DNA from: Mariniflexile maritimum
GTDB lineage: Bacteria > Bacteroidota > Bacteroidia > Flavobacteriales > Flavobacteriaceae
Assembly: GCF_009746565.1 (NCBI RefSeq)
Contig: NZ_WRPN01000001.1
Coordinates: 62,001 to 126,000, forward strand
Length of the DNA: 64,000 nt
Reading direction: 5' to 3'
The notes beneath the pieces were generated by a model. It was not told the origin of the DNA and made no database searches. It worked only from the letters and a program-made list of their open reading frames with translations. How positions within the stretch are numbered: position 1 is the first letter of the stretch; every line of letters starts with the position of its first letter. Made by a program: the position numbers and the translations under genes. Below, piece by piece: positions 14,236-21,489 of this stretch.

Positions 14236-14326
14236 AATGAAAAGTCCCACCGAAGCAGGACTAAAGATTTTCATCTACGGCATATAGCCTTATTGTGATA
14301 AGATTAAAGATTAGAATAAAATTTTC
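14236..14326 (-). ncRNA. tracrRNA candidate B (distal cassette)
   Basis: On the minus strand, an anti-repeat (14292-14316) matches 21 of the first 25 bases of the CRISPR repeat as its complement. Repeat positions 9-10 mismatch, forming a typical 2x2 bulge. Then come CACAATAAGG, a nexus hairpin GGC-TATAT-GCC (14279-14289), a tetraloop hairpin AGAT-GAAA-ATCT, and a terminator AGTCCTGC-TTCG-GTGGGACT followed by TTTTCATTTT. Two G-U pairs in the terminator exist only on the minus strand, fixing the orientation. The ends are estimated from the promoter and the terminator. Confidence 0.85.
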
Positions 14327-14332
14327 ACAAAA

Positions 14333-14364
14333 CAAATATAATAAAATTTGAATAAATACAACAA
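14333..14364 (-). promoter_or_regulatory. Promoter of tracrRNA candidate B
   Basis: The minus strand reads TTGTTG, an 18-base spacer, then TATATTTG (14333-14340). This is a full Bacteroidota promoter placed 16 bases before the anti-repeat. Confidence 0.65.
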
Positions 14365-14454
14365 AAAAGTAAGAAAATAATTTGCTTTTTTGTAAGTTTA
14401 TGTCTGTTGAAAAATTGACAAAATTGACAAGGATTTAAGGTTAAACCATTCCTT

Positions 14455-14576
14455 AAAACAACGAACCTCCAATAAAATTGGAGGCTCTAATTAGGTCACC
14501 TTTCGGTTCAATCCCACGGTTCACTTGATAACAAGGACCTTATTGTGATTTGATTAAAGCAAATGTAAAAAAATAA
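14455..14576 (-). ncRNA. tracrRNA-like candidate A (cas9-proximal cassette)
   Basis: On the minus strand, an anti-repeat (14542-14559) pairs without interruption with the first 18 bases of the repeat (two G-U pairs, no bulge). The same CACAATAAGG junction follows. The rest differs from candidate B: a GGTCCTTG-TTAT-CAAGTGAACC-type hairpin, ACC-GAAA-GGT, and a perfect terminator stem CCTCCAAT-TTT-ATTGGAGG (14466-14484) with a T-rich tail. Promoter, anti-repeat and junction have the same spacing as in B, offset by exactly 250 bp. It may be a second tracrRNA or a regulatory derivative. Confidence 0.65.
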
Positions 14577-14582
14577 TTGATA

Positions 14583-14590
14583 CAAATATA
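14583..14590 (-). promoter_or_regulatory. -7 element of tracrRNA-like candidate A
   Basis: The minus strand reads TATATTTG, identical to the element of candidate B, and ends only three bases before the cas9 ATG. A -33 box would fall inside the cas9 coding region and is not well formed. Confidence 0.5.
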
Positions 14591-14593
14591 AAA

Positions 14594-17500
14594 ATGAATA
14601 GAATAAAACTTGGTTTAGATTTAGGAACCAATAGTATTGGTTGGTCAGTTTTAGAAAAACAAGAAGGAGTATATGATTTTTTTAAAAAAGAAGACGAAAA
14701 TGGAGAATTAATCCCATCTAAAGGCAGTTATATTTTTTCAAAAAGCGTTGACGCAAATGAAAACTCAAAAGCCTCTGAAAGGCGAGGATTCAGAGGTGCA
14801 AGACGAAGAATTGATAGAATTCGTTTGAGGAAAATTGCCACTTTGAAAGTTCTTGACGAATTTGGTTTGTGTCCAAAATTTAAGTCTGGTGAATTAAATA
14901 GATGGAAAAATAAGAAAATTTATCCTTGTGAAAATGGTGATTTTATTGATTGGCAACGAACTGGAAAAAAGAATGGAAACAGCCAAACAGAGAAACTAAG
15001 ACAACCTTATTATTTAAGGTATTTAGCTGCTACTAAACCAGGAATGATGGATACAAATGATGGAAAATCGCAACTTGGCAGAGCTTTTTATCATTTATCT
15101 CAAAGAAGAGGTTATTTATCCAATTCAGAAGAAGAACAATCTGACGATAAAATTGATTTGTTTAAATCAGGTGTTTTAAACTTACTTGAAAAAGTTGCTA
15201 ATTCTGTATCATTTAAAGAAGAGTTAGAAGTTATATTTGACCAATATAAGAATGATAAAAAAGTAAAGAGTTTAAACAACGTTATTAATAAAGAACTAAA
15301 AAAAGAAATTGTTTTTGAAAATATAAAATCATTTGTCAAATCAGAATTTGAAAAACCTGAAAATTTAGGAAAAGTAATGGCAGGAATTGGAGAACTTTCA
15401 AAAGAGATGAAAGGATTTCCAACAATGGGGTGTTATTTTTATTCAATTTACAATAGAATAAATAAAGATACGGGATTAATAAATAGAATTAGAGGAAGAT
15501 ATACACATAGAGAAGATCATTACGAAGCAGAATTTAATTATATATGTGAAATTCAAAAAATTATAGGAGATTTAAAAGATAAATTACATAATGCTATTTT
15601 TTATCAAAGACCATTAAAAAGTCAAAAAGGATTAGTAGCAAAATGTACACTAGAACCCAAACGAAAAAGAATTGCTTTATCGCATCCATTATTCGAAGAG
15701 TTTAGAATGTGGGAATCCATTAATAGAATCAAGATTAAAAGAGAATTTGATGATAAATTAGATTTTCTAAATAAAGAAGAAAAAGAACTAATAAAAAATG
15801 AGTTTTCACAAATAACCGATTTTGAGTTTGGTAAAATTGCAAATAAATTAAGCAATGGACTGCCTTATAATTATATTAAACGACCAGAAGAAGTTTTTAT
15901 AAAAGGAAAAACCGACAAAGATTCAGAAATAGAAGCTGTTATAAGTTTTAATTTTCCGATGGATAAGAAATTTTCTGCTTGTCCAACTATTTCAGCTTTA
16001 AAGAAAATTATTGGTGCCGAAAAATATAGCACAATGCCACTTTTAAATTCTGGACATAAAGATGAAAAAGGAAAGAAGCAAATAAGTATTGAAGATGTTT
16101 GGCATTGTTTACAAATGGATAGTTTTGGTTCAAAAGATAAGAAAACTGTTAGAGAAGAGTTTGCAAAAAATCATTTGCAACTTGATGAAAAAGGAATTGA
16201 AAATCTTGTAAAGATAAAATTAGTCAAAGGTTATGGAAGTTTAAGCAAATCTGCTATAAAGAAAATAATTCCTTTTTTGGAAAAAGGTGAAATTTATACA
16301 AATGCGGTTTTCTTGGCTAATATTACAGAAGTTTTAGGAAGAAAAATTTCAGAAGTTGAACAAAATCAAGTTTCTGAAATCATTAAAAAATCATTAGAGA
16401 ATTTCAGAATAGAAAAACAAAATAAAGGAATTGTAAATAATTACATTTCCAAATTTAAAGATAATCGAGAAAATTCATTAGGAAACAATGAATTAAGCAT
16501 TAATGCTTTTAAAAAGGAATTAGATTATGAAATTGCTAATTGGATTGGAGAAGTTCAATTAGGTTCAATGAAAAAAGAAGAAGTTTCAAAAATTACGGAA
16601 ACTTGTTGGAACTTGTTTTTTGAAGCTGCATGCGATAAATTACCTAAAGATGTAAACTATCTCACAGCGAAAACAATTCCAATTTTTATTGAAGAAGGAT
16701 TAAGACGAGTTTTTCCAAACGATAAAATTGATGTTACTAAATTATATCATCCATCAGCAATGGAAGCATATCCAAAAGCAGAAAAAAAATTAGGTAATCC
16801 TGAAATAACCTCAATAAAAAATCCTGTTTTTGATAGAGCAATGCATCAAGTTAAGCGACTATGCAATGAATTAATCAGAAAAGGTTTGGTAGATAAAGAA
16901 ACCGAAGTTAATCTTGAAGTTGCAGGAGAAATTAATAGTGCAAGTTACAGAAGAGCTTTGACTATTTGGCAAAAAGAACAAGAAGAAATAAGAACTTGGG
17001 CTAGAGAAAAAATTATTGAATGTTATCCAGAAGAAGATAGAAAAAATAAAATACCAACAGATACTGAAGTAGCTAAATATATTTTATATAGTGAGCAAAA
17101 TGGAAGATGTTTATATACTTCTGAAACAATTACACCAAGAGATTTTTTGAATAAACAAACCATTTATGATATTGAGCACACAATTCCAAGAAGCAAAAAC
17201 AATGATAATTCTTTAAAAAATAAAACCTTAGCAAATTATGATTTCAACAGGAATTATAAAAAAGCAATTCTTCCAGGTTTGATAAATGTAAATTATAAAG
17301 GTGAGCAAATTTATAAAGAAACTATTTTATTAAACAGAAACGAGCATTTAAAATCATATTCTTTTGTTGGGAAAAAACCAAACATGAATATTGTATGGAA
17401 TGTTTCATTAAGTGATTTAAAATTTGAATATAAAAAATTCAAAAATGCAGCAAAAGCTATAACTGATGCAGTTGCTCATGATGAGGTAATGAAAATGGCT

Positions 17501-18907
17501 CATTACACCAAAATGAAATTAGATTATTTACGAGAAAAATATAGAAATTTTGAAATTGAAGAAATCAATAATCAATTTACAAATGCGAACCTTGTTGATA
17601 CAAGAATAATCACAAAATACTCTAGAGCATATTTGAACTCCTATTTCAATAAAGTAAATGTAGTTAATGGAAAAATAACAGACACTCTGCGAAAAATTTG
17701 GGGACTTCAAGGAGAAGAAGATGTTAAAGATAGGAGTAATCATATCCATCATTGTATTGACGCAATTGTGGTAGCTTGTGTAGAGAAAGGGACTTCAAAT
17801 AGAATTTCTGAATTATATCACAAATATGAAAATGATTATTTTAGGGGAAATTCTAATCCCAGAATTAGCTCAAAGGAACCAATGAAAAATTTTGTTGAGC
17901 GAATGAAGAATTTGCACAAAGAAGTTTTGGTTTATCACAAACAAACCGATAGAATTAAACCACTCTTAATAAACGCTCAAAAAGAAAATACAAAAAAATT
18001 AAATTTAAGAGGAAGACTCAATAGTCAAAACCCATATGCACATATTAAGAAGGATGGTGAGTTAATTTTTGCACAAAGAGAAAAGGTTTCAAATATAACA
18101 GTTAAAGATATTCAAGAAAATATAGTTGATGAAGGAATAAAAAAACGAATCTTGAATTTTACAAAAGATTTTAATATAGAGGAATTTGTTAAAGAAAGTA
18201 ATAAGTTGGGTTATATAATTCTTCCAAAGTATTATGATGAAGAAAAGAATAAAGATATTAGTGAAATGATTATTAAAAGATTGAGATTAAAATCATCAAA
18301 ATCAAATTTAAAAAATTATAAAGAAGTAAGGAAAATAGATAGAAATCAAACTATAGATAAATATGGTAAGTTGAAATATGGTCATAAATTTGACTTTTAT
18401 TTCGACAAGGATTCTTATACAAATTATGAAGCAAGAATTTATGGTGATTTAATTCCTGATAAGCCCGGAAAAAAGACACCATTTACAAATAGAAATTCAA
18501 ATCTTATAAATAACTATAATATTGTAAAAAATGATTTCCCAGTAGAATTAAATAAGCCAATTTTCACATTGCATCAAGGTGATATGTTTATAGTTTTTAA
18601 TAATAATCCTGAAGAAATTGAATGGAATAATAATATAGATTTACAACATAGGCTATTTAAAGTTGTTAAGTTTACAGAAGACAAAGAAAAAGGAGAAATA
18701 AAACAAATAATTTTTTCAAGACATAATTATGCATTAGGTGATGTAGATTCTGCAATTTCTACATCTGAAAATGAGTTGTATAACTTATCAGGTGTTGTAT
18801 TAAGAAAAAGTGTATCTTCTTTACGAGTTATACCTGCAAAAATCGATGCCTTAGGTAAATTAGATGTAACTTTTAGTAAAGATTTTATAAATTCAAGAAA
18901 TAATTAA
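14594..18907 (+). CDS. cas9: CRISPR-associated endonuclease Cas9, type II-C
   Basis: This 1437-residue Cas9 has complete catalytic motifs. RuvC-I is LGLDLGTNSIGWSVLE (Asp9). The Arg-rich bridge helix is RRGFRGARRRIDRIRLRKIA (about 63-82). RuvC-II is VNLEVAGEIN (Glu775). HNH is YDIEHTIPRS (His862), and RuvC-III is HIHHCIDAIVVA (His1053, Asp1056). It is RNA-guided and cuts DNA matching a spacer. No csn2 or cas4 is present, which with the long Bacteroidota-type protein indicates subtype II-C. The gene is visibly more A+T-rich than its neighbours, suggesting transfer. No obvious plus-strand promoter of its own was found. Confidence 0.97.
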   Translation: MNRIKLGLDLGTNSIGWSVLEKQEGVYDFFKKEDENGELIPSKGSYIFSKSVDANENSKASERRGFRGARRRIDRIRLRKIATLKVLDEFGLCPKFKSGELNRWKNKKIYPCENGDFIDWQRTGKKNGNSQTEKLRQPYYLRYLAATKPGMMDTNDGKSQLGRAFYHLSQRRGYLSNSEEEQSDDKIDLFKSGVLNLLEKVANSVSFKEELEVIFDQYKNDKKVKSLNNVINKELKKEIVFENIKSFVKSEFEKPENLGKVMAGIGELSKEMKGFPTMGCYFYSIYNRINKDTGLINRIRGRYTHREDHYEAEFNYICEIQKIIGDLKDKLHNAIFYQRPLKSQKGLVAKCTLEPKRKRIALSHPLFEEFRMWESINRIKIKREFDDKLDFLNKEEKELIKNEFSQITDFEFGKIANKLSNGLPYNYIKRPEEVFIKGKTDKDSEIEAVISFNFPMDKKFSACPTISALKKIIGAEKYSTMPLLNSGHKDEKGKKQISIEDVWHCLQMDSFGSKDKKTVREEFAKNHLQLDEKGIENLVKIKLVKGYGSLSKSAIKKIIPFLEKGEIYTNAVFLANITEVLGRKISEVEQNQVSEIIKKSLENFRIEKQNKGIVNNYISKFKDNRENSLGNNELSINAFKKELDYEIANWIGEVQLGSMKKEEVSKITETCWNLFFEAACDKLPKDVNYLTAKTIPIFIEEGLRRVFPNDKIDVTKLYHPSAMEAYPKAEKKLGNPEITSIKNPVFDRAMHQVKRLCNELIRKGLVDKETEVNLEVAGEINSASYRRALTIWQKEQEEIRTWAREKIIECYPEEDRKNKIPTDTEVAKYILYSEQNGRCLYTSETITPRDFLNKQTIYDIEHTIPRSKNNDNSLKNKTLANYDFNRNYKKAILPGLINVNYKGEQIYKETILLNRNEHLKSYSFVGKKPNMNIVWNVSLSDLKFEYKKFKNAAKAITDAVAHDEVMKMAHYTKMKLDYLREKYRNFEIEEINNQFTNANLVDTRIITKYSRAYLNSYFNKVNVVNGKITDTLRKIWGLQGEEDVKDRSNHIHHCIDAIVVACVEKGTSNRISELYHKYENDYFRGNSNPRISSKEPMKNFVERMKNLHKEVLVYHKQTDRIKPLLINAQKENTKKLNLRGRLNSQNPYAHIKKDGELIFAQREKVSNITVKDIQENIVDEGIKKRILNFTKDFNIEEFVKESNKLGYIILPKYYDEEKNKDISEMIIKRLRLKSSKSNLKNYKEVRKIDRNQTIDKYGKLKYGHKFDFYFDKDSYTNYEARIYGDLIPDKPGKKTPFTNRNSNLINNYNIVKNDFPVELNKPIFTLHQGDMFIVFNNNPEEIEWNNNIDLQHRLFKVVKFTEDKEKGEIKQIIFSRHNYALGDVDSAISTSENELYNLSGVVLRKSVSSLRVIPAKIDALGKLDVTFSKDFINSRNN

Positions 18908-19112
18908 AAAACTTACATTTGTAAATTATGAATGAATCAAAACTGGCAAAAGGACAAATATAAAAAATCCTAACAAAATTGGATAAGGTTGAGAAAATTG
19001 GTTTTAGTACTAAAACTAAAGAGTAACTTTTAATTGAGATAAAAAGAAAATTAGGATTGAAATAAATTTTGAAAAAGTTCTTTGACATAAAATTTTCATA
19101 ATCTTAAACAAC

Positions 19113-19169
19113 CAAACCACAACGGAAAATCTTCCGATTTTCTGACAACGGATTTTCCGTTGTGGTTTG
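19113..19169. repeat. 19-bp perfect inverted repeat at the array's left edge, overlapping the first CRISPR repeat
   Basis: The left arm 19113-19131 (CAAACCACAACGGAAAATC) is the exact reverse complement of 19151-19169, which is eight flanking bases plus the first 11 bases of repeat 1. Inside it, GAAAATC (19125-19131) can pair instead with GATTTTC (19136-19142), giving a competing short hairpin. In a leader transcript the arm would mask the anti-repeat-pairing end of repeat 1. Confidence 0.85.
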
Positions 19170-19392
19170 ATTAAAGATTAGAAAACACGATATTATACCG
19201 TCCATGGTACTGTATTAATGTCCTGTTGTGGTTTGATTAAAGATTAGAAAACACGATATTCATCTTAAAACAAAAAAATCAATAATAATCGTTGTGGTTT
19301 GATTAAAGATTAGAAAACACGATATTAACTATGGACTACACAACCAGCAGAAAGGCGTTGTGGTTTGATTAAAGATTAGAAAACACGATATT
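19159..19392 (+). CRISPR. Type II-C CRISPR array, 4 repeats and 3 spacers
   Basis: Four identical 36-nt repeats start at 19159, 19225, 19291 and 19357. They begin GTTGTGGTTTGATTAAAG and end AACACGATATT. The three spacers are each 30 nt: 19195-19224, 19261-19290 and 19327-19356. The direction is inferred from the tracrRNA candidates, whose anti-repeats complement the 5' half of the plus-strand repeat, so crRNAs should be plus-strand. No degenerate terminal repeat marks the trailer. The array is small and perfectly homogeneous. Confidence 0.97.
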
Positions 19393-19541: not shown

Positions 19542-19691
19542 GTAGGGACAGGTCGCGACCTGTCCGTACGTGGATATTAGATGTTTTGTTTTTGTGATTC
19601 GGGTAGGTGGACAGGTCGCGACCTGTCCGTACAGGATTGATTGATGTTTTGTTTATGTGATTCGGGTGGGTGGACAGGTCGCGATCTGTCC
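19542..19691. repeat. Tandem REP-like palindromes (three copies, 63-bp period)
   Basis: The 20-base palindrome GGACAGGTCGCGACCTGTCC occurs at 19546-19565 and 19609-19628. It recurs with one change at 19672-19691. Each is followed by GTAC, and the copies sit in 63-bp units sharing GATGTTTTGTTT and GTGATTCGGGT. They lie immediately upstream of the Y1 transposase gene, the standard layout of REP/RAYT systems. Confidence 0.9.
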
Positions 19692-19727
19692 GTACAGAAT
19701 CAATCATTATAATTTTTTGAATAAATA

Positions 19728-20279
19728 ATGAAAAACAGGAAAAGAAATCGAATGGCAGGTTTTGATTATACCAGCAATCATGTTTATTTCGTTACGGTTT
19801 GTGTTCAGAACAGGTTATGTTGTTTTGGTTCCGTAATTTCCGAAGGGGCAGGTCGCGACCTGTCCGTACAAAATCCCCATGATAAAAATCCCCATGATTT
19901 GCCACAAAATTATAAAATGCAATTAAATCAATTCGGATTAATTGTTGAAGAAAAAATAAATTGGTTAGAACAGCACTATCTGTACGTTGAAATCCATAAT
20001 TATGTTGTTATGCCAAATCATATTCACATTCTATTGGAAATTAACAGCACAAAAATTAGTGGTTTAGATGTGAAAATTAAATCGCTATCAAGCATAATTG
20101 GCGCATTAAAAACCACTTCTTCAAAGGAAATTCATTTGAAGGGTTTAAATGATTTCAGCTGGCAGCGTTCCTTTCACGATCATATTGTAAAAAACGAACC
20201 ATCCTACTTAAATATAGATAATTACATAAGCCTAAACGCCAAAAACTGGTATAAAGATGTTTTTTTTAATCAAAATTGA
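19728..20279 (+). mobile_element. REP-associated tyrosine transposase (RAYT, Y1_Tnp)
   Basis: This 183-residue single-strand DNA transposase of the IS200/IS605-like Y1 superfamily has FDYTSNHVYFVTVCVQNR at the start. The HUH motif is VVMPNHIHILLEI (about 102-114). The region SWQRSFHDHIVKNEPSYLNI with DNYISLNAKNW holds the likely catalytic Tyr. RAYTs recognise and mobilise REP palindromes. Residues GAGRDLSVQ (about 41-49) are encoded by a fourth copy of the palindrome at 19846-19865. The start follows the REP block by 36 bases, and the stop is 5 bases from the end of convergent cas2. Confidence 0.9.
19846..19865. repeat. REP palindrome inside the transposase reading frame
   Basis: GGGCAGGTCGCGACCTGTCC differs by one base from the upstream REPs and is followed by the same GTACA. 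It is translated in frame as part of the transposase. Confidence 0.9.
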
Positions 20280-20284
20280 ATTTA

Positions 20285-20614
20285 TTAAAACAATTCCAAT
20301 TGGGTTGGTGGCGCTTCTTTGGGCACTTCTGCACGACCCCAAAAATTCATGATGTGTCCAAATTGTTTGTCGGTTATGCGCAAAACGCTCACTTTTCCCA
20401 GAGGAGGCAATAATTTTTTAATGCGCTTTTCATGTACATCGGCACTTTCGCCACTTGCACAATGCCGTATGTAAACAGAATATTGCATCATGGCAAAACC
20501 ATCCTTTAACAGGTTTTTTCTAAAGCCTGAAGCCGTTTTTCTATCTTTGGCGGTATCGGTTGGCAAGTCAAAAAAAACAAATAACCACATAATCCTATAC
20601 CCATTTAGTTCCAT
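20285..20614 (-). CDS. cas2: CRISPR-associated endoribonuclease/integration factor Cas2
   Basis: The start is set at the ATG ending at 20614 (MELNGYRIMWLFVFFDLP), giving 109 residues. This is the usual Cas2 length, and it overlaps the cas1 end by 10 bases. Longer starts reach deeper into cas1. The fold markers FVFFDLPTDTAKDRK (conserved Asp after the first strand), MMQYSVYIRHCASG and KVSVLRITDKQFG are present. With Cas1 it forms the complex that inserts new spacers. It is convergent with the transposase gene. Confidence 0.93.
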   Translation of the reverse strand: MELNGYRIMWLFVFFDLPTDTAKDRKTASGFRKNLLKDGFAMMQYSVYIRHCASGESADVHEKRIKKLLPPLGKVSVLRITDKQFGHIMNFWGRAEVPKEAPPTQLELF

Positions 20615-21489
20615 AGTTTTGGATACTTGATTTTTTTGCGCTCGCCACTGTAGCATTGTTGCAGTGAACTAGCCGTTTTTTGTAGCGCTACCATCAACGG
20701 ACTTTTTTCTGTTTTAAAATATACGGTTCTGGTAAGTACTTCCAACAACATAGATTTTATTTCGGTTGTTAATTCTTGTTCGTCATAATGCTGCATGATG
20801 GTATAAACCGCTTCATCAACCAGGGGCCTAAAGGGTTCCATAATGTCGTCGGCCAAGGCAAAGGCATTATATTTGCTTTTATGGTGAATGCCCAAGGTGT
20901 TTAACAAACCACTGCCCGATAGGGCACGGGCGGTTGCAGCCCTTAATATGGCATAGCCGTAGTTTAGGAAATTATTTGGATAATCGCCAAGGCGCTCTCT
21001 TTTGAAGTCTGTTTCAAAAAACGATTTCCAATAAAAACTGGCAGCAACCCCTTCCATATTTGAGGAATCGCCACTTAATACTTTACTGGCCAGATACTCA
21101 AATTTATTTTCGGTACCTGTAATGGTTTTAAGAAGCAAGCCTTGATTTGTTATTTTTTCTATAACCGTTTGTTGCCATAATTGTTTTTTTAAAGGAACAC
21201 TGGCATCAATTTGGTACTTAAAAATTTCCTGTTGGATGTGGTGGCTGTTTAAATTTAATAACATGCCATTGGGAAGGTGTTTTTCATCGCAAAAAATACA
21301 AGCGCAATTATTATTGATTAATTTGTTGAGTGCCGGCATGCTTATATAAACCTCGTGATGGTCGATTATAACATATCCAATATCTTCTATGGGGATGGTT
21401 CTGTTTTTGGTTTCAGAAGAAATTACAAGTTGCTCGTTGGAAGTGGTTATAGCGCACTTATTCGTGAAAAAGAGTGTCTTTTTGATCAT
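20605..21489 (-). CDS. cas1: CRISPR-associated integrase Cas1, type II
   Basis: This 294-residue Cas1 has the metal-binding residues in place: Glu146 in NMEGVAASFYW, the His in LGIHHKSKYNAFALADD (about 202) and the Asp pair 214-215. PFRPLVDEAVY follows. It nicks the repeat ends and joins protospacers during adaptation, together with Cas2. The cas1-cas2 pair points towards cas9 and the array and is separated from them by the REP/RAYT insertion. Adaptation therefore appears intact at sequence level. Confidence 0.96.
   Translation of the reverse strand: MIKKTLFFTNKCAITTSNEQLVISSETKNRTIPIEDIGYVIIDHHEVYISMPALNKLINNNCACIFCDEKHLPNGMLLNLNSHHIQQEIFKYQIDASVPLKKQLWQQTVIEKITNQGLLLKTITGTENKFEYLASKVLSGDSSNMEGVAASFYWKSFFETDFKRERLGDYPNNFLNYGYAILRAATARALSGSGLLNTLGIHHKSKYNAFALADDIMEPFRPLVDEAVYTIMQHYDEQELTTEIKSMLLEVLTRTVYFKTEKSPLMVALQKTASSLQQCYSGERKKIKYPKLWN

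Follow-up and report, generated by a model that had tools for sequence, protein, structure and literature searches.

The window analysed here is a stretch of 64,000 nucleotides from Mariniflexile maritimum, and it carries a CRISPR–Cas locus whose cas9 gene (14594..18907, plus strand; 1437 aa) encodes a protein with RuvC and HNH motifs that is named Cas9 by NCBIfam and belongs to what we call the dual-tracrRNA clade. Downstream of cas9 lies a CRISPR array with four 36-nt repeats, GTTGTGGTTTGATTAAAGATTAGAAAACACGATATT, and three spacers (19159..19392, plus strand), followed by cas2 (20285..20656, minus strand; TIGR01573) and cas1 of the resident adaptation module (20605..21489, minus strand; TIGR03639). 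At 19110-19172 an inverted repeat with 22-nt arms that are 95% complementary brings together the end of the leader and the beginning of the first repeat; similar hairpins are proposed in PMC12080349 to silence the extraneous crRNA of II-C arrays. Copies of a palindrome, GGACAGGTCGCGACCTGTCC, occur between the array and cas2 (19546-19875 and 19728-20279), adjoined by a gene that resembles REP-associated tyrosine transposases, though its 54.5 bits fall short of the curated cut-off of 80, and the same palindrome is present near the distal tracrRNA-like unit of a related locus, L012. A Flavo-1 RNA (RF01705) scores 59.1 bits at 1223-1334.

Upstream of cas9, two tracrRNA-like units are encoded in tandem on the minus strand, unit A (14455-14559) next to the gene and unit B (14240-14316) further away. 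The original prediction had proposed such a pair from the letters of the window, and both units are indeed seen in the sequence and conserved in relatives. Unit B has a promoter box TATATTTG (14333..14340) 43 nt upstream of its junction, a bulged anti-repeat (14292..14316) that forms 23 bp with repeat positions 1-25 around a 2x2 internal loop (-28.4 kcal/mol), a GGC-TATAT-GCC nexus (14279..14289) and a terminator hairpin with a T run (14240..14262). A bulged anti-repeat, an GGCTATATGCC nexus and a terminator are what single-tracrRNA loci possess, and the prediction of a canonical II-C tracrRNA is thus upheld: unit B is of the ordinary bulged type of Bacteroidota. Unit A was predicted to have an 18-base anti-repeat without a bulge and a different fold, and this too is what we find. 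Its promoter box of the -7 type, TACATTTG (14560..14567), precedes an unbulged anti-repeat (14542..14559) that forms 18 bp with repeat positions 1-18 (-22.3 kcal/mol), a nexus hairpin GGTCCTTG..CAAGTGAACC (14518..14539) and a terminal hairpin GAGCCTCC..GGAGGTTC with the tail GTTGTTTT (14455..14487). Both units share the junction CACAATAAGG, at 14538-14547 in unit A and 14288-14297 in unit B, 250 nt apart in the window; it occurs six times in the 3.66-Mb genome, two of these at this locus, and a backward control gives three matches.

Scanning a collection of species genomes with six peptides of the window Cas9 yielded six related loci (L007-L012) with Cas9 proteins 57-86% identical to it; L007 is the locus of Flavobacterium daejeonense DSM 17708. 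Both units are present in all six of these closest Cas9 relatives found, which together with the window make seven dual loci; rather than being absent from all close relatives, the outcome that the original prediction had named as adverse to it, unit A recurs in every one. Two other signs by which a tandem cassette was to be recognised did not hold up. The offset between A and B, given as 250 bases in the original prediction, ranges from 146 to 322 over the seven loci (250 in the window, 239 in L010, and 174, 159, 306, 146 and 322), and is therefore peculiar to the window genome, while the outer TATATTTG at unit A (14583-14590), said to be shared by the two units, has no counterpart in the six relatives. 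What is conserved is a TAnnTTTG box abutting the anti-repeat of unit A in 7/7 loci, 20 nt upstream of the junction (21 in L009), where mononucleotide shuffles lead one to expect 0.003-0.006 such boxes per locus at 20-22 nt. In each of these loci, moreover, 45-50 nt separate unit A from the start codon of cas9, and among the window, L007 and L010 it is 82-94% identical, compared with 17-54% for the stretch between A and B in the same three loci. At unit B, a box lies 43-45 nt upstream in the window, L009, L010 and L012, and no TAnnTTTG box was found near the unit in L007, L008 and L011; boxes of the kind seen at 14333-14340 are common to many single-tracrRNA loci. In L010, where unit B lies 285 nt upstream of cas9, the GGCTATATGCC nexus is replaced by a stronger hairpin, TCCGCC-ACG-GCGGA, and the junction is altered too; the anti-repeat of this unit matches L010's own changed repeat.

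The features that define a type II-C tracrRNA are found in unit A across the dual loci: an anti-repeat that forms 15-18 bp with the array's repeat in 7/7, a nexus hairpin and a terminal hairpin. The nexus hairpin lies at the same place in the single-sequence folds of all seven A units, directly 3' of AATAA, and its inner sequence differs from locus to locus. In the terminal hairpin, AGAGCC...GGTTCGTT, three of the ten pairs show changes in both bases in one or more sequences, and one G-U pair is invariant; on the opposite strand this pair would be A-C, which identifies the minus strand as that of the RNA. In L009, two positions of the unit A anti-repeat have changed together with the repeat in a compensating manner, and the nexus of unit A, GGCTATATGCCGAAGG, is B-like, so that units A and B are probably related. 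The TAnnTTTG box corresponds to what we take to be the -7-type box of the Bacteroidota promoter consensus; if that rule holds, the predicted start of the unit A RNA lies a few nucleotides past the box, inside the anti-repeat. For unit A to be transcribed, bound by Cas9 and able to support cleavage, as a tracrRNA would be, the one sign in the sequence is this conserved promoter-like box.

How widely unit A occurs was assessed by comparing 42 oriented loci, with L044 dropped where the script found no cas9 start; 28 of the loci were comparable single-tracrRNA loci. All 28 carry a bulged CTTAT-type unit, with the cas9 start codon 78-177 nt away in 26 and about 416 nt away in two, and unit A was found in none of them. 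With a covariance model of unit A, the seven dual loci, its training set, scored 68-127 bits, and nothing else in the 50 sources scanned, the 28 single-tracrRNA loci among them, scored above 29.8 bits; some of the weak matches of 20-30 bits are to B units, whose anti-repeat end is shared with unit A. In L058, a second junction match with one mismatch at 52 nt was taken for chance. Scanning whole genomes with the same model found unit A in 7/8 genomes, the exception being G821, the one clade member added by protein searches of whole genomes (the genome sets overlap); its Cas9 is 54% identical over most of the protein, and its single short bulged unit lies 59 nt from the start codon. A second match to the model, at 30.1 bits, lies in the window's genome outside the window. 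In viral contigs, neither a match to the unit A pattern nor a relative of the window Cas9 was found; in plasmids, 46 records matched this Cas9, with identities under 60% throughout and no match covering more than 80% of the query. Tandem tracrRNA-like units are also seen in a different Cas9 clade with the repeat GTTGTGAATTGCTTTCAG (L042:8942-9160; L043:8803-9010; L044 5312 and 5057, minus strand), where the second unit has a self-complementary TTCACAATAAGGATTATTCCGTTGTGAA core that is kept in L044 despite a decayed anti-repeat.

The histories of Cas9 and Cas1 disagree at these loci, and such disagreement is the criterion for Cas9 shuffling in situ. In a Cas9 tree of 42 rows, built with a quick method whose program warns of long branches, the seven dual Cas9 proteins and that of G821 form a single clade with full support, set on a long branch, with no clear order of L009 and G821; it follows that unit A may either be a gain that postdates the split of G821 or have disappeared from G821. 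The Cas1 tree comprised 32 rows (six dual loci, G821 and 25 others), the ten of the 42 oriented loci that had no Cas1 hit being left out, among them L010, which gave no Cas1 hit on its piece and is thus absent from the Cas1 analyses and the Mantel comparison. Here, the Cas1 proteins of the six dual loci are scattered among those of single-tracrRNA loci: the window pairs with L051, L012 with L085, L011 with L050 and L008 with L087, while L007 falls within a larger clade and L009 groups weakly with G821. A single Cas1 clade for the six dual loci is rejected (p-AU 2e-27), and six label changes are needed. Unit A follows Cas9 rather than Cas1 in five well-supported contrasts; in the Mantel comparison of six loci, the correlation of unit A distances with those of Cas9 (r 0.31) is no higher than with those of Cas1 (r 0.46), and the comparison, in which unit B was included as well, singles out no partner for unit A.

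Two dual loci still contain a clear remnant of an older cas9. Between L012 and L074, a stretch of 1568 nt with 78.5% identity ends at position 2477, beside the 3' end of unit A at 2479, and homology resumes 15 nt past the cas9 stop codon, at 85% over 304 nt; aligned with L085, a larger piece of the same locus as L074, L012 reads unit B, then the first 17 codons of a cas9 of the single-tracrRNA type (MTKILGLDLGTNSIGWA), then unit A. Likewise, L009 and L078 share 252 nt, with 88.5% identity, that cover unit B and approximately the first 20 codons of the old cas9, and the homology returns at the cas9 stop codon, at 80% onward. The dead cas9 5' ends between A and B in these two of the seven dual loci resemble the other Cas9 type and not the present one, and they still align closely to the donor type, for which reason both swaps look recent. 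L010 shows a collinear alignment over a shorter piece, a candidate short trace. In the window, a candidate trace of an old cas9 5' end at 14424..14440 (plus strand) matches at 13/17 nt, and 52 of 500 shuffles are as good; it is not claimed. Taken together, the breakpoints, which are direct evidence at two loci, and the trees, which bear on five or more, indicate that cas9 was exchanged along with unit A at approximately the boundaries of the gene.

We therefore consider it probable that the two tracrRNAs are of different origin and that a cassette of unit A and cas9 repeatedly replaced the resident cas9, as argued by one Cas9 clade set against scattered Cas1 proteins, by the lack of unit A in the single-tracrRNA loci and by the dead cas9 ends. 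The two units and their conservation, the linkage of A to the Cas9 clade, the conflict between Cas9 and Cas1 and the two dead ends can all be read from the sequence itself; from these we infer that both RNAs would be transcribed and would both load this Cas9. According to this model, a foreign cas9 would arrive together with a short tracrRNA of its own, unit A, placed some 45-50 nt ahead of the start codon, and the replaced piece would extend from near the 5' end of the old cas9 to about its stop codon in II-C loci of Bacteroidota. Since that piece would roughly coincide with the old cas9, the resident unit B, the array and cas1-cas2 would stay in place.

What the two RNAs might do is suggested by how they pair. 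Across a panel of 13 distinct repeats, which includes one apparently misparsed repeat (L093) that was left in, a unit's own repeat is the best match for unit B in 7/7 loci and for unit A in 2/7, and the mean loss of pairing energy on going from the own repeat to the panel is 2.7-6.1 kcal/mol for unit A and 6.6-12.8 kcal/mol for unit B. Unit A would pair chiefly with the first 15 nt of the repeat, a nearly constant stretch, and so fit many arrays. Its transcript, starting inside the anti-repeat, would need no 5' trimming and could serve as a ready-made scaffold, and the long bulged duplex of unit B would direct RNase III processing of pre-crRNA. A division of labour along these lines, with unit A as a portable, pre-trimmed generalist and unit B as the array's specialist for RNase III maturation, is a tentative idea that we regard as possible and do not favour strongly. 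It is important to point out that unit B is as much a resident as the repeat; the fit of unit B to its own repeat is thus no proof of selection after the swap and may predate it.

Several other readings of the pair deserve consideration. The original prediction had offered dual guide pools, a decoy or Cas9 autoregulation as possible meanings; the comparative data favour replacement of cas9. Unit B could be a leftover of the displaced cas9, used at each swap as the left arm in homologous recombination, while A alone does the work; its position outside the swapped piece, the three loci without a TAnnTTTG box near B and the recent look of the swaps in L012 and L009 agree with this, but B is kept, and is best fitted to its own repeat, in all seven loci, and in G821, whose Cas9 falls in this clade too, the sole unit is B-like, which means that this Cas9 type is probably able to use one. 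On balance we think it unlikely that B is a mere relic. We also think it unlikely that unit A is a regulator, whether it sequesters crRNA or Cas9 as a decoy or acts as antisense RNA on the cas9 leader. The fixed distance of A from the cas9 start codon would make it antisense to any leader transcribed through it, and A is unbulged and short; yet it retains a nexus-like hairpin and the tracrRNA junction, and the plus strand showed no conserved TAnnTTTG box that could serve cas9, nor can a cas9 promoter be named. Spacer matches to the cassette, considered as a sign of self-regulation, were rejected: at 78% identity or more, one of 784 spacers matches, the same as for reversed controls (1/784), and at 74% the counts are six versus nine. 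One spacer of L012 matches its own unit A promoter at 24/30 nt in register with TAnnTTTG, and reversed spacers score similarly.

An origin of unit A by duplication of B within the locus, with no exchange, would account for the common junction and the B-like nexus of unit A in L009, but it would leave unexplained why close Cas1 relatives with another Cas9 have no unit A and why A and B are separated by 5' ends of foreign cas9 genes; we judge it very unlikely, and the two units may instead be related at greater depth. Hardly credible is a scaRNA-like RNA from the plus strand of unit A, whose repeat-like stretch (14542-14559) would pair with tracrRNA B: two signals, the promoter box and the G-U pair that never varies in the terminal hairpin, point to the minus strand, the would-be guide coincides with the variable nexus, and a plus-strand TAnnTTTG box is absent from the 700 nt upstream in the window, with none conserved.

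Replacement by a cassette of unit A and cas9 builds on a process that has been described. In Flavobacteriales II-C systems, Cas9 shuffling in situ is reported to leave cas1 genes that are close kin next to cas9 genes that are only distantly related (PMC12669027), and the same combination is found at the present loci; the available text mentions neither a tracrRNA that moves with cas9 nor a locus with two tracrRNAs, both of which are seen here. Like ordinary type II-C tracrRNAs, units A and B have an anti-repeat, a nexus and a terminal hairpin and are divergent to cas9; unlike them, they occur two per locus, and none of the seven A units has a bulge, their promoter box lying directly against the anti-repeat. 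The tracr-L and tracr-S forms of Streptococcus pyogenes also provide two tracrRNA forms for one Cas9, but, according to PMC11417352, they derive from one gene with two promoters and the long form is a natural single guide, whereas here there are two separate genes and unit A lacks a guide part. An assignment of unit A to tracr-L was rejected, as a guide and a repeat-like part are absent upstream and the promoter box abuts the anti-repeat (the start site being predicted). The scaRNA, described in PMC6199352 as carrying a repeat-like part that pairs with tracrRNA, is likewise an extra, repeat-related small RNA unit near a type II locus; unit A differs in that its minus strand, the one marked by box and G-U pair, holds an anti-repeat and not a repeat-like part, and it was not classed as a scaRNA. 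No natural two-tracrRNA locus and no tracrRNA travelling with cas9 were recognised in the open-licence literature, and an earlier description is possible. Within that literature, the exchange of cas9 is a known process; the novelty lies in the passenger tracrRNA and in the pair that results.

For the annotation of such loci, our results carry a warning: the tracrRNA that best matches the repeat of an array may not be the original partner of its cas9, and a mismatch in origin between tracrRNA and cas9 matters for the design of guide scaffolds for new Cas9 enzymes. The locus offers a natural test of one Cas9 using two scaffolds, in which processing and targeting may be split between two tracrRNAs. 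If the division of labour is true, a cassette of cas9 and unit A could spread among arrays whose repeats differ. A Cas9 that comes with a tracrRNA of its own could pass from one CRISPR locus to another even where the resident scaffold is possibly unfit for it.
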